Under the pieces are notes generated by a model. It did no database searches, had not been told where the DNA came from, and worked only from the letters and a program-made list of their open reading frames with translations. This document shows, piece after piece, positions 48,873 through 58,031 of a stretch of 64,000 nt of DNA (position 1 is the first letter of the stretch; every line of letters begins with the position of its first letter). Source of the DNA: Eggerthella timonensis. Its GTDB lineage: Bacteria; Actinomycetota; Coriobacteriia; Coriobacteriales; Eggerthellaceae. Location: the NCBI RefSeq assembly GCF_900184265.1, contig NZ_FXXA01000002.1, positions 372,001 to 436,000 of the forward strand, written 5' to 3'. A program made the position numbers and the translations under genes.

Positions 48873-48915
48873 AGAGGCTGTGCCCTGCGCATTGCCCCGC
48901 GCACCCCACAAAGCG

Positions 48916-48954
48916 AAGCCCCCTATGTTTCACGTGAAACATAGGGGGCTTTTT
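48916..48954 (+). terminator. Terminator hairpin containing a parS site
   Basis: A perfect 36-bp palindrome (48916-48951) is followed by a T-run, 45 bases after the permease stop. Its centre is a 16-bp parS consensus, so one sequence can act as an RNA hairpin and a ParB-binding DNA site. Confidence 0.8.
48926..48941. other. parS site 1 (ParB-binding centromere element)
   Basis: TGTTTCACGTGAAACA, a perfect palindrome and the standard chromosomal parS consensus. First of four in 6.3 kb. Confidence 0.85.
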
Positions 48955-48975
48955 CGCACCTGCGTTCCCCAAACG

Positions 48976-49012
48976 GATGTCCCAAAGGGGGACTGTCCCC
49001 GTTTGGGACATC
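48976..49012 (-). terminator. Hairpin after the nitrilase-family gene
   Basis: GATGTCCCAAA (48976-48986) pairs with TTTGGGACATC (49002-49012), plus an inner GGGG/CCCC. It directly abuts the stop of the minus-strand amidase gene and is followed by CGTTTGG. It may be a weak terminator or a dispersed hairpin repeat. Confidence 0.6.
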
Positions 49013-49854
49013 TACGGGAGCAGCACCAGGTCGTAGAGATCGGGACGTCGGTCGCGCAGATAGGGGCTGCGCTGGCGATATCCCACGACCTCGTCCAGAT
49101 CGAGTTCCACATGCAGCACGCCTTCGGCTTCCTCGACCAGCTCGGCGACCACGTGGCCGCGCGGATCGCATACCTTCGTGTGGCCCGGCATGACCAGCTG
49201 GTCCTCAACGCCGTAGCGGTTGACGGCCGCGACGAACGCCGTGTTCTCCAACGCGCGGGCGGGCACGTTCACGTCCCACACGTCCATATCCTCCTCGCAC
49301 CACGCCGACGGGCACAGGATGAGGTCGGCGCCCTGCAGCGCCAGCATCCGCGCCACCTCGGGAAATCCCATGTCGTAGCAGATCATCACGCCGATGCGCC
49401 CGAAGTCGGTGTCGAACACGGGGCAATCGCACCCCGAGCGGAAGTAGAAGCGCTCGAGCGCCCACAGGTGCTGCTTGTCATAGGTGCCCATGAGCTCGCC
49501 CTGCCGATCGATGATCACCGAGCTGTTGAACGGCACGCCCGCCATGTCGTAGGCAAGCGCGAGGCCCGCCACCACGTAGCAGTTGCCCGCGCGGGCGGCG
49601 TCCTGCAACGCACGCACCGTGGGGCCGTCGACCGGCTCGGCCAGCTCGGGCACGTGCGGGCCGACGATGTTCAGCTCGTAACCCGTCGAGAACAGCTCGG
49701 GCAGCACCACGAGGTCGGCGCCCTCGGCCGCCGCCTCAGCGATCATGCGGCACGCCTTCTCGGTGTTCGCCGCAGGGTCGCACAACTCGCTCTCGAACTG
49801 GATAAGCGCCAGGTGCGCGGGGTGTTTTGCCGCCCTTTGTTTCATTTTGGTCAT
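49012..49854 (-). CDS. Carbon-nitrogen hydrolase (nitrilase superfamily)
   Basis: A 280-residue amidase with the Glu-Lys-Cys triad: Glu in VLPELFSTGY, Lys in TYDKQHLW and Cys in VMICYDMGFPE. It hydrolyses an amide or N-carbamoyl bond. Next to hydantoinase-like genes, an N-carbamoyl-amino-acid or omega-amide substrate is a reasonable guess. The ATG follows AAAGGAG. Confidence 0.9.
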   Translation of the reverse strand: MTKMKQRAAKHPAHLALIQFESELCDPAANTEKACRMIAEAAAEGADLVVLPELFSTGYELNIVGPHVPELAEPVDGPTVRALQDAARAGNCYVVAGLALAYDMAGVPFNSSVIIDRQGELMGTYDKQHLWALERFYFRSGCDCPVFDTDFGRIGVMICYDMGFPEVARMLALQGADLILCPSAWCEEDMDVWDVNVPARALENTAFVAAVNRYGVEDQLVMPGHTKVCDPRGHVVAELVEEAEGVLHVELDLDEVVGYRQRSPYLRDRRPDLYDLVLLP

Positions 49855-49951
49855 GAGTTCTCCTTTGCGCTACAAGCCATATCCGTGCATTATCGCACGA
49901 CGAAGGCGCGACGCGCCTTGCCAGTCGGATCGACGATGGCGGCCGTCGCGC

Positions 49952-50269
49952 CTACGCCCCTCGATCCACCCTTGTTGAAATCCTGCTTCTGATGCACATC
50001 GCAATGGCGGACGATCCGACGATAAGCGAGAACGCCGCAGCTGCAATGAACCATGCTCTTGCGGTGTCCTCGATTGCCCGCCAATCGCCCTGAGCAGCGC
50101 ACTCGGATAGTATCCAGATGATCGACACGAGCACTGCGAGAGAGCCTACGAGCGAAAGGCACAGCAGAACCAGTCGCGAAAGCATGCTCTTGCATAGAAA
50201 CGCACCTGCTATCTGCCCAACAATAATTACTCCGGCCAGGATCACGATCAATGCAGAAACGGCAACCAT
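49952..50269 (-). CDS. Small polytopic membrane protein
   Basis: About 105 residues from the ATG after AGGGG (a GTG six codons upstream is possible). Three hydrophobic helices are predicted: SALIVILAGVIIVGQIAG, LVLLCLSLVGSLAVLVSIIW and AWFIAAAAFSLIVGSSAIAM. It has no recognised family. It lies between the hydantoinase operon and the amidase gene, in the same direction. Confidence 0.6.
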   Translation of the reverse strand: MVAVSALIVILAGVIIVGQIAGAFLCKSMLSRLVLLCLSLVGSLAVLVSIIWILSECAAQGDWRAIEDTARAWFIAAAAFSLIVGSSAIAMCIRSRISTRVDRGA

Positions 50270-50331
50270 CGACGACACCCCTATCACAGGAACGGACGCC
50301 CGGGCACTGCGGTCGACCGCAGCATCGAGCA

Positions 50332-50359
50332 GTTCCGGCGGTCTGCCGACCGCCGGAAC
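50332..50359 (-). terminator. Hairpin after the hydantoinase gene
   Basis: A perfect 12-bp stem GTTCCGGCGGTC / GACCGCCGGAAC with a 4-base loop lies four bases past the hyuA-like stop. The minus-strand T-run is absent. Confidence 0.6.
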
Positions 50360-50363
50360 CGAA

Positions 50364-51944
50364 CTACAGCATCAAATCGCCGACGGCTTTGACGCGGATG
50401 CACAGCGCGTCGCCGAGGTAGGCCATCGGGATGTCCTCGACGTCGACCACCTCCACGGTGCTGGGGTCGGCGCCGGCTTCGACAGCCTCGTCGCACGCGC
50501 GCTGCTTCGATTCGGCAAGCGCCTGGTCGCGCGGCGTCTCGGCCATCGAGAACACCTTGGCGATCTGGCCGGACACCTGCGCGATGGCCGAGCCCACGGC
50601 GTTCGCCACGCCGAAGTTCTGCGGGCGCAGCACGTTGTTCGAGCCTTCCAGGTGGTCGGGAGCCAGGATGGAGCCACCGCCCACGAGGATGACCGTCACG
50701 TCGCCGGCCGAGGTCTTCATCGCGTCCACGGCATCCTCGATGATGCGCGTGATCTCCGCATAGGCCGCATTCACGAGCGCCGGGTCGAGATCGGCCACGA
50801 GCGCGGGGTCGCCCACGCCCTCGGCCAGCCCCTTCGCCACCACGATATCGGTTGCGGTCAGCGTGTCGCCGCCGAAGCAGAGCGCCTTCTTCGTGACGAG
50901 GTAGCCCACGCTGTCGGGACCCACCGTCACGCGACCGTCGTCGAGACGCCACACGAGCGACCCGCCGCCGAGGCCCACCGACACGAGGTCGGGCATGCGG
51001 AAGTTCGTGCGCACGTCGCCGATCTCGACGGCCACCATGCTCTCGCGCGGGAAGCCGTGCGCGAGCACGCCCACGTCGGTGGTGGTGCCGCCGATGTCAA
51101 CGACCACGGCATCCTTTTCCTGCGTCAGGAACGACGCGCCGCGGATGGAGTTCGTGGGGCCGCAGGCGATGGTGAAGATGGGATAGCGCTTCGCGTAGTC
51201 CACGGACATGAGCGTGCCGTCGTTCTGGCCCAGATACACGGCCACGTCGGTGAGGCCCTCGGACGCGAGCGCCGCCTCGAAACTGTCGGCCGTCGTGCGC
51301 GCCACGTCGTACAGCGCCGCGTTCAGGATGGACGCGTTCTCGCGCTCGAGGAAGCCAAGCGACCCGATCTCGGACGACAGCGTGATGGGGAAGCCCTCGC
51401 CCAGCTCGTCGCGCAGGATGGCGGCGGCGCGCTTCTCGTGCGCGTCGGACACCGGAGAGAACACGCTGGTCACGGCAACGGATTCGAAGCCGTCCTCGCG
51501 AACGACCCGCGCCACCCCGCGGATCTCGTCCTCGGAAAGCGGGCTGATCTCGCGGCCGTCGAACTCGTTGCCGCCGTGCACGAGGAAGTCGCGCACGCGC
51601 ATGGCGTCCTTCAGCTCGTCGGGCCAGTCGGCCATGCAGCTGATGGCCGTCGTGGCCGGCGCACCCACGCGCAGCGCGGCCACCTTGTTGAGGCGCTTGC
51701 GCTCGACGATGGCGTTCGTGCAATGCGTGGTGCCCAGCATGGCGAACCCGATGTTCTTCGCTGCTTCGGCGCCGATCTGCGTGATGACCTCGTGCATGGC
51801 AGCCTCGATGCCGCCCATGACGTCCTCGGTGGTGGGGCTTTTCGTCGCAGCGACCAGGTTGAGATCGCCGTCGATGATCACAGCGTCGGTATTCGTGCCG
51901 CCCACGTCGATACCAAGACGCCAGATACGCTTCTGATCTGCCAT
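50364..51944 (-). CDS. Hydantoinase/oxoprolinase family protein (HyuA-like)
   Basis: A 526-residue ATPase-fold enzyme. LGIDVGGTNTDAVIIDG at the N-terminus and VVVDIGGTTTDVGVLAHG in the middle are the two phosphate-binding motifs of the hydantoinase_A family; GFAMLGTTHCTNAIVER matches too. Relatives hydrolyse hydantoin- or 5-oxoproline-type rings with ATP. Its ATG overlaps the DUF917 stop (TAATG). DUF917 and HyuA are frequent neighbours and may form one enzyme. Confidence 0.9.
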   Translation of the reverse strand: MADQKRIWRLGIDVGGTNTDAVIIDGDLNLVAATKSPTTEDVMGGIEAAMHEVITQIGAEAAKNIGFAMLGTTHCTNAIVERKRLNKVAALRVGAPATTAISCMADWPDELKDAMRVRDFLVHGGNEFDGREISPLSEDEIRGVARVVREDGFESVAVTSVFSPVSDAHEKRAAAILRDELGEGFPITLSSEIGSLGFLERENASILNAALYDVARTTADSFEAALASEGLTDVAVYLGQNDGTLMSVDYAKRYPIFTIACGPTNSIRGASFLTQEKDAVVVDIGGTTTDVGVLAHGFPRESMVAVEIGDVRTNFRMPDLVSVGLGGGSLVWRLDDGRVTVGPDSVGYLVTKKALCFGGDTLTATDIVVAKGLAEGVGDPALVADLDPALVNAAYAEITRIIEDAVDAMKTSAGDVTVILVGGGSILAPDHLEGSNNVLRPQNFGVANAVGSAIAQVSGQIAKVFSMAETPRDQALAESKQRACDEAVEAGADPSTVEVVDVEDIPMAYLGDALCIRVKAVGDLML

Positions 51945-53062
51945 TACGCCTGCACCTCCTGCTCGCTTGCCGCCGCCTTCGCCGCCATGCGCTCCTCAAC
52001 CGGCACGTAATCGATGTCGTAGCCGAACGCGCGCGGGCCCACCACGGACAGGCCCTCGGGCGTGCGCCACTGCGGGGCGCAGGGCATGCCCACCACCACG
52101 ACGCGGGCGCCGTACTTGAGGCCTTCGGTGGTCACGGGCGCGCCGGACTCCATGTCCAGCGACATGACGAGGTCGGGCGCCGTGGTCACCGGCTCGCCGT
52201 CGCGCAGCGCGATGAGGTTCTCGTTCTGGAACTCGATGACCATCCGGCTGCCTTTGTCCTGGTCGAGGCCGTCCACCACGGCCTGGCCGCGCACGAACAT
52301 GCCGTCGGTCTTGCGCTCGACGTCAACCACCTTGCCGCGGAACAGCCGGAACCCGTTCGTCACGTTCAGCACGGCCTCGATGGGATCGGCGTGCTGCTCG
52401 CGCGCCTCACGCAGCGTGCGGCCGATCTCCTCGCACAGCGTGGGCGTGTTGGGGATGCAGTAATCCTTGAGCTGTTTGCCCGTGCACGGATACGACGCGA
52501 GGATGGTGTAGCCGCCCATCACCGACGTGGCCTGACGCGAGATGCGCTCGAGCCACGTGTCGTCGATGCCGCGCACCGTCACGGTGTTGCCCTTCTCGTC
52601 GGCCAAGACCGCCGGGAGGCCCTGCACGCCGTTGATGCTGAGCGTCACCATTTGCAGCTCGGGGAACGCGCGGCCCATGAGATCGCAGTCCACCACGGGA
52701 ATCTGACGCGTGGCGGCCAGGATGAACGGGATGGTGGAGTTCACGCCGCCCGCTTCCACCGCGTAGATGGCGTACGGCTCCTGGCCCAGCTCTTTCACCA
52801 GCTCGTCGTACGTGGCCATAGGCTCGAGGCCGCTGCAGATCTTCTCCACCATGATAGTGGGGGCGCCCATCATCTGCGACACGCATACCATCGCTTCGTC
52901 GGGAACTTCGTCGGGCGTGATCAGCTCGACCTCGCCGTACTTCTTGATGGCCTCGATGGCCATGAGCTTGCCGACGTAGGGGTCGCCGCCCCCGCCCGCG
53001 CCGAGGACCGTCGCGCCAAGCGCCATATCCTCGATCTCTTTGATGCCGATTTTCCTTCTCAT
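51944..53062 (-). CDS. DUF917 family protein
   Basis: A 372-residue protein. MRRKIGIKEIEDMALGATVL with GAGGGGDP at its start and MGRAFPELQMVT are typical of DUF917, a family of unknown activity found beside hydantoinase genes. The ATG follows GAAAGG. First gene of a minus-strand operon and divergent from the DUF1177 gene; the 108-base gap holds both promoters. Confidence 0.88.
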   Translation of the reverse strand: MRRKIGIKEIEDMALGATVLGAGGGGDPYVGKLMAIEAIKKYGEVELITPDEVPDEAMVCVSQMMGAPTIMVEKICSGLEPMATYDELVKELGQEPYAIYAVEAGGVNSTIPFILAATRQIPVVDCDLMGRAFPELQMVTLSINGVQGLPAVLADEKGNTVTVRGIDDTWLERISRQATSVMGGYTILASYPCTGKQLKDYCIPNTPTLCEEIGRTLREAREQHADPIEAVLNVTNGFRLFRGKVVDVERKTDGMFVRGQAVVDGLDQDKGSRMVIEFQNENLIALRDGEPVTTAPDLVMSLDMESGAPVTTEGLKYGARVVVVGMPCAPQWRTPEGLSVVGPRAFGYDIDYVPVEERMAAKAAASEQEVQA

Positions 53063-53170
53063 GATGGAATGGAACCTTTCGTCGAAGATGCTACGAACTG
53101 CATAGAACCGTATTATCATGGAACCGAACGAGGAAAGCGACACCATAGAGGCAAAAGGAGACACCTTCCC

Positions 53171-54133
53171 ATGATTTTCAAACAGTTGATCGAGCTGTAC
53201 GATTTGTTGGATTCGCCTGCCGCGAGCGGCGCGGGCGTCGTGGACTACCTGCGCGGCATCGACCCCGCGTGCGATGCCGAGACGTACGTGCTGGAAGGGC
53301 CGAAGGGCTCCACCGACATGGTGCGCGTGCGCATCCCCGGCTCGCGCGGGCGCGCGACGGGTGGCGACGCGCCCACCATCGGGTTGCTGGGACGTTTGGG
53401 CGGCTTGGGCGCGCGGCCCGAGCGCATCGGGTTCGTGTCGGACGGCGACGGCGCGCTCACCGCGCTGGCCTGCGCGGCGAAGCTGCTGTCGATGCACGCG
53501 CGCGGCGACGTGCTGCCGGGCGATGTGTTCATCTCCACCCACGTGTGCCCGCACGCCCCCACCTTCCCGCATGAGCCCGTGGCGTTCATGGGCTCGCCCG
53601 TGGCCACGGCCGACGTGAACCGCGAGGAAGTGGGCGGCACCCCGCTCGATGCGGTGCTCGTGGTGGACACGACGAAGGGGAACCGCATCATGAACGAGCG
53701 CGGCTTCATGATCTCCCCCACGGTGAAGGAGGGCTGCATCCTGCGCGTCAGCGAGGACCTCGTATCGCTCGTGGAGATCGCCACCGGTCGCCGCGCGCGC
53801 ACGTACCCGCTGTCCATGGCCGACATCACGCCGTACGGCAACGGCCTGTACCACCTGAATTCCATCCTGCAACCCTGCACGGCCACCGATGCGCCCGTCG
53901 TGGGCGTGGCTATCACCACCGAGACGGCCGTCCCGGGCTGCGCGACCGGAGCCACTCATCTGACCGACCTGGACGAGGCAGGGTCGTTCATGATCGAGGC
54001 AGCGAAGGCGTTCGGCGAGGGGAAATGCGCGTTCTACGACGAGGAAGAGCACGCACGCTTCGTGGAGCGCTATGGAAGCATGGCCCATCTGCAAGGCATG
54101 GGCGCGCTGCCTGCGGAAGACCCGGAGGCATAA
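53171..54133 (+). CDS. DUF1177 family protein
   Basis: A 320-residue protein from the ATG after AAAGGAG. The sequence IGFVSDGDGALTALACAAKL with ISTHVCPHAPTFPHEPVAFM and VVDTTKGN is characteristic of DUF1177, whose members appear beside HyuA/DUF917 genes. His and Asp residues in these blocks suggest a metal site. Function is unknown; a hydrolase or racemase step in the same pathway is inferred. Confidence 0.85.
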   Translation: MIFKQLIELYDLLDSPAASGAGVVDYLRGIDPACDAETYVLEGPKGSTDMVRVRIPGSRGRATGGDAPTIGLLGRLGGLGARPERIGFVSDGDGALTALACAAKLLSMHARGDVLPGDVFISTHVCPHAPTFPHEPVAFMGSPVATADVNREEVGGTPLDAVLVVDTTKGNRIMNERGFMISPTVKEGCILRVSEDLVSLVEIATGRRARTYPLSMADITPYGNGLYHLNSILQPCTATDAPVVGVAITTETAVPGCATGATHLTDLDEAGSFMIEAAKAFGEGKCAFYDEEEHARFVERYGSMAHLQGMGALPAEDPEA

Positions 54134-54157
54134 GCTTCACCCTTCTTGCCGTCCACG

Positions 54158-54173
54158 TGTTTCACGTGAAACA
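54158..54173. other. parS site 2
   Basis: TGTTTCACGTGAAACA, inside a 26-bp perfect palindrome (54153-54178) just after the DUF1177 gene. Confidence 0.85.
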
Positions 54174-54205
54174 CGTGGCGCAATGCACTGCGATACAAGA
54201 ACAAA

Positions 54206-54221
54206 TGTTTCACGTGAAACA
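54206..54221. other. parS site 3
   Basis: TGTTTCACGTGAAACA, 48 bases from site 2 and 22 bases upstream of the aminopeptidase start, overlapping its leader. Confidence 0.85.
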
Positions 54222-54242
54222 TCGTCGAACGAAAGGTACGGA

Positions 54243-55196
54243 ATGAACCTCGCAGAACGTGCTCGGTCCATCATTGAAACCAACCTCGCTCTTCAACCGG
54301 ACGAGATGCTGCTCATCGTCACCGACGATCCCACGCGCGAGGTGGGCGAGCTGTTCTACCGAGCCGCCTGCGCCATGGGCCGCCACGCGCTCATCATGCA
54401 GATGCCCGAGGGCTCGGTAGCCGGCGAGGAGCCGCCCGCGCCGGTGGCTGCGGCCATGAAAGCCGCCGACGTCGCGCTGTGCCCCACGGCGAAGTCCATC
54501 ACGCACACGAACGCGCGCATCGAAGCCGCGGGGGCGGGCACGCGCGTGGTCACCATGCCCAGCATCACGATGGATATGCTGCGCGACGGCGCCGCCTGCG
54601 CCGACTACGCCCAGGTAGAACAGCGCACCCGCGCGCTCACCGAGCGCCTTTCGCGCGCATCGCACGCACGCATCGAAAAAGACGGCCAGGTGCTGGAGCT
54701 GGCGCTGACCGGGCGCGACGGCGTGGCCAGCCCCGGCATCTACCGCGAGCCGGGCGCGAGCGGCAACTTTCCCTCGGGCGAGGCGTACATCGCGCCGCTC
54801 GAAAGCGAGGCGAACGGGACGGCCGCCGTCGACGGCTCCATGGTGGGCATCGGCACGCTGGCCGAGCCGCTCGTCGTCACGATCGAGAACGGGCGCCTCG
54901 TGCACATGGAGGGCGGCGATGCGGAAGGCCCCTACGCCGAGCGCCTCGACGTGCTGTTCGACCAACCCGAGAACGGCACCATCGCCGAGCTGGGCATCGG
55001 CACGAACGAAGCGGCGAAGCTGTGCGGCATCATCCTCGAAGACGAGAAGCTCTACGGCACCGTCCACATCGCCTTCGGCACGAACACCTCGTTCGGCGGC
55101 ACCACGAAAGCCGCCTGCCACCTCGACGGCATCATCCTCAAGCCCACCCTCTACCTCGACGGAGAATGCGTCATCCGCGAGGGCGAGTTCGTGTAA
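54243..55196 (+). CDS. M29-like aminopeptidase (leucyl aminopeptidase/NicX-like)
   Basis: A 317-residue metalloenzyme. LNRERARS is absent, but the M29-type blocks are clear: NFPSGEAYIAPLE, IAELGIGTNEAA, TVHIAFGTNTSFGG and ACHLDGIIL supply the Glu/His metal ligands. The family includes aminopeptidases and the ring-opening dioxygenase NicX. The ATG follows GAAAGG, and parS site 3 lies in the leader. It probably acts with the HyuA/DUF917/DUF1177 set. Confidence 0.85.
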   Translation: MNLAERARSIIETNLALQPDEMLLIVTDDPTREVGELFYRAACAMGRHALIMQMPEGSVAGEEPPAPVAAAMKAADVALCPTAKSITHTNARIEAAGAGTRVVTMPSITMDMLRDGAACADYAQVEQRTRALTERLSRASHARIEKDGQVLELALTGRDGVASPGIYREPGASGNFPSGEAYIAPLESEANGTAAVDGSMVGIGTLAEPLVVTIENGRLVHMEGGDAEGPYAERLDVLFDQPENGTIAELGIGTNEAAKLCGIILEDEKLYGTVHIAFGTNTSFGGTTKAACHLDGIILKPTLYLDGECVIREGEFV

Positions 55197-55255
55197 CCCG
55201 TGCTCAGTGTCCCGGCGTTGCGCGCCCCCATGCTTCGCACCCCGACAACCCGCGA

Positions 55256-55271
55256 TGTTTCACGTGAAACA
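55256..55271. other. parS site 4
   Basis: TGTTTCACGTGAAACA, at the centre of a 24-bp perfect palindrome (55252-55275), between the aminopeptidase and clpB genes. Confidence 0.85.
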
Positions 55272-55293
55272 TCGCAGAGCGTCCCAACGCAAA

Positions 55294-55321
55294 AGCGGCC
55301 CGACGAAACCGTCGGGCCGCT
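55294..55321. terminator. Terminator between aminopeptidase gene and clpB
   Basis: A perfect 12-bp stem (55294-55305 with 55310-55321), loop AAAC. On the minus strand it is followed by TTTTGCG, so it ends the heat-shock operon; it also faces the plus-strand gene. Confidence 0.88.
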
Positions 55322-55367
55322 GCTTGTTCGTTCGCGCTTGTCCGTTCGCGAACGTAGTGCCGAGTAG

Positions 55368-58031
<2,664 letters not shown>

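Follow-up and report, generated by a model that had tools for sequence, protein, structure and literature searches.

Chromosomal ParABS systems use short parS sites that are bound by ParB/Spo0J and that are linked to SMC loading. Reviews give 1 to 20-23 parS per chromosome, located near oriC (PMC7333895; PMC10197239). Streptomyces chromosomes carry 22.8 parS on average; the largest predicted number met in the literature searched is 65, obtained with a weight matrix for S. albidoflavus J1074 (PMC8743542). Why the number of parS varies and why the sites stay near the origin has been stated as an open question (PMC7333895). In B. subtilis, how many Smc loading sites there are and where they lie was described as tuned against collisions (PMC8357415). 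No report on parS in Eggerthella or its relatives was found in the literature searched. In Eggerthella timonensis, most dispersed parS are accompanied by a previously undescribed extra sequence, TYYGTNY, whose distance from the site is fixed. This suggests that centromere sites of a second class exist. Hereafter, this sequence is called the arm, sites that carry it are called armed, and sites that do not are called plain.

The window analyzed is a 64-kb stretch (C2:372001-436000) of the E. timonensis genome (3,916,897 bp, two contigs). A mismatch scan of the window found TGTTTCACGTGAAACA exactly at 48926, 54158, 54206 and 55256, and no further match with up to three mismatches. Shuffled windows contained 0.10 matches on average and never reached four. 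This confirms the four perfect intergenic parS of an earlier, sequence-only reading of this DNA. Genes were called with a home-made program that put at least one gene pair of the window in the wrong place. By these calls, the sites occupy three gaps. Two of them, 48873-49014 (parS 48926) and 55197-55370 (parS 55256), separate convergent genes, and the third, 54134-54242 (parS 54158 and 54206), is flanked by co-directional genes.

Site 1 (48926-48941) is an exact 16-mer of the plain type. It lies at the tip of a hairpin that resembles a terminator, on the forward strand (48913-48957; GCCCCCTATGTTTCACGTGAAACATAGGGGGC followed by TTTTT), in the gap where a permease gene and a CN-hydrolase gene converge. 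The RNA fold energy of this hairpin is -33.1 kcal/mol (z -9.9). The same hairpin architecture is found at the parS adjoining parB (C2:532670; -32.2 kcal/mol). Site 2 (54158-54173), also plain, forms the center of a 26-bp palindrome, CCACG-parS-CGTGG (54153-54178), and is the outer site of a pair (type B, or type 2 below). The other member, site 3 (54206-54221), is an exact 16-mer of the armed class. The 32-bp spacer of this conserved pair (54174-54205, forward strand; 48 bp start to start) contains an inner dyad, GCGCA-N6-TGCGA (54178-54193), and the arm GAACAAA (54199-54205, forward strand; TTTGTTC in reverse), which adjoins site 3. Site 4 (55256-55271) is plain and forms the center of a 24-bp palindrome, GCGA-parS-TCGC.

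Sites 2 and 3 are upstream, and site 4 is downstream, of an M29-type aminopeptidase gene (54243-55196, forward strand; Pfam PF02073, E 2.9e-9). This gene was used as the anchor of a homologue search comparing the locus across relatives. The aminopeptidase locus has three parS in E. timonensis and one each in E. sinensis and genome G030, and five other genomes have no parS there. Turnover of parS sites is fast, as this locus illustrates. The E. sinensis parS is plain, has the same CGA/TCG edges as site 4 and is likewise 3' of the aminopeptidase gene.

Over the whole genome, 125 exact parS were found, and a reversed-pattern control gave 0. The count rises to 161 if up to two mismatches are allowed. 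The density of the window is about twice the genome mean (4 sites vs 2.0 expected per 64 kb). The densest cluster, 12 parS in 13 kb, is at C2:529-542 kb, around parB (C2:533.2 kb) and dnaA/oriC (C2:540.8 kb). The sequence-only reading had taken the region of the four sites for a main zone of ParB loading close to oriC. The region does belong to the origin-proximal part of the chromosome, the distance of its sites to dnaA being 113-120 kb, or about 6% of a replichore. Against a main zone, the window has no GC-skew switch. GC skew, determined on samples, stays largely negative up to ~540 kb, is positive beyond it and becomes negative again near 2.5 Mb. Because dnaA/oriC lies 113-120 kb from the four sites, the window is not the main loading zone. 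The nearness to dnaA and the plain type of three of the four window sites would fit such a zone, but the principal cluster is elsewhere and 121 more sites exist, which makes this role of the window highly improbable. A parB gene is present, and the 125 copies extend over both chromosome arms to the terminus. With so many copies the main-zone reading falls, and the identity of the sites as parS stands. As to the clustering of parS near oriC, it is seen for 14 plain sites within 25 kb, and a further 98 sites that were read are dispersed.

The flanks of 112 of the 125 sites were read, and 11 of the 125 have no listed position. Among the sites read, 103 of 112 are intergenic, compared with a non-coding share of 19.6% of the DNA (p 8e-62). 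Promoter-specific placement is unsupported among them, and convergent and tandem gaps are common. Site density decreases from oriC to the terminus; on the right chromosome arm, 200-kb bins taken outward from oriC contain 19, 11, 10, 6, 5, 2, 4, 2, 3 and 5 parS (KS p 3e-5, first 15 kb excluded). Five parS are nevertheless grouped within 8 kb at the terminus (C2:2435590-2443457, L065), all or nearly all of them armed, and further parS are found near 2.3-2.7 Mb in the terminus region. For two of the five, a parS is also found close to the corresponding position of G070, a second Eggerthella genome.

The chromosomal ParB of E. timonensis is composed of ParB_N and HTH_ParB domains, contains the CTP motif GERRWQA and is encoded next to a ParA gene. 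Alignment to Caulobacter ParB (6t1f) shows that it keeps R173 and G201, two residues reported to be conserved in all ParB and to set parS versus NBS specificity (PMC7383237). At the positions of the Noc set, Q173/K179/K184/R201, it has R-A-E-G. The earlier assignment of the sites to the chromosomal parS consensus agrees with this parS-type ParB and its adjacent ParA. Four other ParB_N proteins differ in the HTH region, as judged by eye, so that all 125 sites are probably read by a single chromosomal-type ParB. Two further parA-parB pairs are present, L032 (C2:501.7 kb) and L033 (C2:3.71 Mb), and the HTH region of their ParB looks plasmid-type. A plain parS (C2:503188) is located upstream of the L032 pair.

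The wide spread of the sites and their thinning to the terminus resemble the layout of Noc sites (PMC7383237). Dispersed ParB complexes could then keep division away from the nucleoid, in the manner of Noc in Bacillus. However, the sites are parS and not NBS, the ParB residues are parS-type and not Noc-type, and the terminus also has sites, among them the five-site cluster at C2:2.436-2.443 Mb. A nucleoid-occlusion-like role thus appears distinctly unlikely. Identity with the Noc/NBS system itself was rejected on the site sequence and the ParB residues.

Plain and armed sites are distributed differently. Up to 25 kb from oriC every site is plain (14/14), and the arm is absent from all 349 parS found in parB loci (68 Eggerthellaceae loci). 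It is present on 76 of the 98 dispersed sites, for a chance rate of 0.46%; 71 sites are one-armed, 5 two-armed and 22 armless. The armed share climbs with distance from oriC, from 0/14 through 11/19, 20/28 and 21/23 to 24/28. Spacing is strict, GTWC occurring 85 times at offset 3 from parS and 0-3 times at each of the seven other offsets tested. The arm showed no clear preference for a strand or a replichore (R/L 28/23 on the right chromosome arm, 13/7 on the left). In other genomes, the arm is found on 20 of 30 sites in G030, 7 of 14 in Gordonibacter pamelaeae and 8 of 23 sampled dispersed sites in Adlercreutzia faecimuris. In these three it is looser (GTACG, GTTTG, GTGCG). A strict form of the armed site is present in 31 of 138 family genomes.

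In Eggerthella, the arm together with the adjoining parS half reads CGAAC-RNR-Y-GTTTC, which is the published Gram-positive LexA consensus, CGAACRnRYGTTYC (PMC2248561), and 51 sites near parS fit this consensus. Because of this match, and because the lexA promoter of E. timonensis has CGAACAAAGGTTC, LexA is the best named candidate for a factor that reads the arm. Armed parS might accordingly be operators, at which LexA or another repressor binds the arm and one parS half and overlaps ParB. They would form a SOS or regulator switch that possibly gates ParB loading under DNA damage. Yet CGAACNNNNGTTTC is scarce away from parS in the DNA examined (5 vs 52), the looser arm of G030, Gordonibacter and A. 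faecimuris is unlike a LexA half-site, and the sites have no promoter bias. We consider the operator explanation unlikely. The lexA promoter (L077:1392-1431, C2 ~2.518 Mb) contains two GAAC-N4-GTTC boxes ~28 bp apart, which flank a TATAAT-like sequence.

Two kinds of parS pairs recur. In type 1, the sites are 34 bp apart with a TYYGTWYGCGCRWACRRA-like spacer. In type 2, the interval is 48-49 bp and the spacer resembles TGTCGCAATGnnnTGCGATAAnGGAACAAA; the window pair 54158/54206 belongs to this type. Ten pairs of 48-49 bp were listed, nine of which contain the GAACAAA arm. Spacers related to 54174-54205 are found at other Eggerthella loci and in G030, and further pairs are present in G070 and G030. 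Facing parS 34-35 bp apart were seen several times in G030 (e.g. L167, L178, L181, L194) and more rarely in Eggerthella. A TCGCA-N6-TGCGA dyad adjoins parS or sits between paired parS in Eggerthella and G030. A related dyad, TTGTCGCA-N6-TGCGACAA, occurs in A. faecimuris at L241:600-630 and L241:6024-6055 with no parS nearby, and could serve a different regulator as its operator. In addition, an intergenic inverted-repeat family of ~150-180 bp (GCAGTTTTCACCCACATGTTGCG ... CGCAACATGTGGGTGAAAACCGC) is located beside several parS at variable distance (L046, L047, L050, L059, L065, L067).

Flank BLAST identified repeats of 80-320 bp common to some parS flanks, for instance at C2:143152, 1306234 and 1306548 (~93%). 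Since such repeats are found at a minority of sites only, a single shared transposable unit is improbable; the unit common to the copies is parS plus arm only. The repeat of the E. lenta megabase inversion has a different sequence.

Conservation was evaluated by comparing the stretches around 48 parS of G070 with homologous E. timonensis DNA, the 16-mer being masked. An exact parS was found in 12 of 37 orthologous alignments, against 0.33 expected from the flank identity (0.67), and several more of the 37 are one or two mismatches from parS. When 13 orthologous armed sites were compared, most of them agreed in arm and side. Because the alignments depend on the flanks, this comparison supports selection on the set rather than measuring it site by site. 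These data also bear on an origin of the copies as debris of intergenic repeats or terminators, in which parS hairpins were spread by short mobile repeats or by duplication and ParB binding is incidental. The shared repeats, the recurrent two-site elements and the sites that form terminators would be expected from such a process. On the other hand, most flanks are unrelated, the arm spacing is exact, the core is kept between species beyond its flanks and site density tracks the distance to oriC. Moreover, no TTCGTTCG-armed parS was found in viral contigs. Debris is therefore a very unlikely explanation.

Among 398 genomes of the class Coriobacteriia, parS counts are mostly 0-8, and genera of one family stand out. 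Four Eggerthella species contain 109-148 exact parS (109 in E. sinensis), and several other Eggerthellaceae contain 48-126: Enterorhabdus sp. P55 (126), Rubneribacter badeniensis (122), Adlercreutzia faecimuris (107), Gordonibacter pamelaeae (78) and Enteroscipio rubneri (48). Counts are low in Paraeggerthella hongkongensis (9), A. equolifaciens (4) and A. hattorii (2). In a sample of the phylum, no genome from other families had more than 21 parS. High counts are found in more than one group of the ParB tree, which is weakly resolved.

We propose that the 125 parS form a two-class, genome-wide set read by the chromosomal-type ParB, in which armed sites would be secondary ParB-clamp loading points working with a second factor. 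From the sequence evidence, we give this reading a probability of about 0.55. The first class, plain parS at parB/dnaA that are intermixed with armed sites to ~120 kb, would be the ordinary centromere segregated by ParA. The second class would be made of the armed sites (TGTTTCACGTGAAACA-TYYGTNY), nearly always one-sided, with a fixed 3-bp spacing, intergenic, on both replichores and densest near the origin. Here, a putative second DNA-binding factor would read the arm, and the secondary loading points would spread ParB, and via ParB also SMC, along the chromosome arms beyond the origin. The sequence, number and position of the sites, their two classes, the fixed spacing, the conservation between species and the ParB specificity residues are observed; that ParB occupies the sites in the cell, that a second factor takes part, that SMC is loaded there and that the chromosome is folded accordingly is what we infer. 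Three observations run counter to this reading: the armless 22 of the 98 dispersed sites, the armless majority of the sampled dispersed sites in A. faecimuris and the fast turnover seen at the aminopeptidase locus. In Caulobacter and Pseudomonas, additional parS at a large distance from the origin have harmful effects (PMC5815017, PMC7333895), so that the dispersed sites could also have a neutral or a regulatory role.

A bolder version, which we put forward as tentative, is that Eggerthellaceae have a second bacterial centromere class, in which dispersed parS are joined, with constant spacing, to a half-site for a different DNA-binding protein. The candidate factor, possibly LexA, would license or block the loading of ParB, and hence of SMC, at ~100 places. 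If it were LexA, chromosome folding would become DNA-damage-responsive. The strictly spaced accessory half-site suggests a new candidate regulator of ParB loading. Species of several gut genera with ~100 or more exact, conserved, chromosome-wide parS also provide a natural experiment on parS number and placement.

Comparison with known systems situates this set. With Noc/NBS of Bacillus and Staphylococcus it has in common many dispersed sites, a reader of the ParB-family fold and a thinning toward the terminus. It differs in its parS sequence, in the lack of a Noc-type chromosomal ParB and in the persistence of terminus sites. The Eggerthella arm plus parS half fits the LexA SOS box, but this motif is almost always fused to a full parS, is not promoter-bound and is looser in other genera. 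Streptomyces arrays resemble the E. timonensis set by a high parS number in an actinobacterium. They are composed of consensus-matrix sites mostly close to oriC, with no arm found described (PMC8743542), whereas the E. timonensis sites are all exact and reach the terminus. With chromosomal ParABS, the set shares the 16-bp consensus, a parS-type ParB beside ParA and a dense plain cluster at parB/dnaA. Compared with the 1-23 sites near oriC of that system (PMC7333895), E. timonensis stands apart by 125 exact sites distributed over the chromosome and by the armed class.
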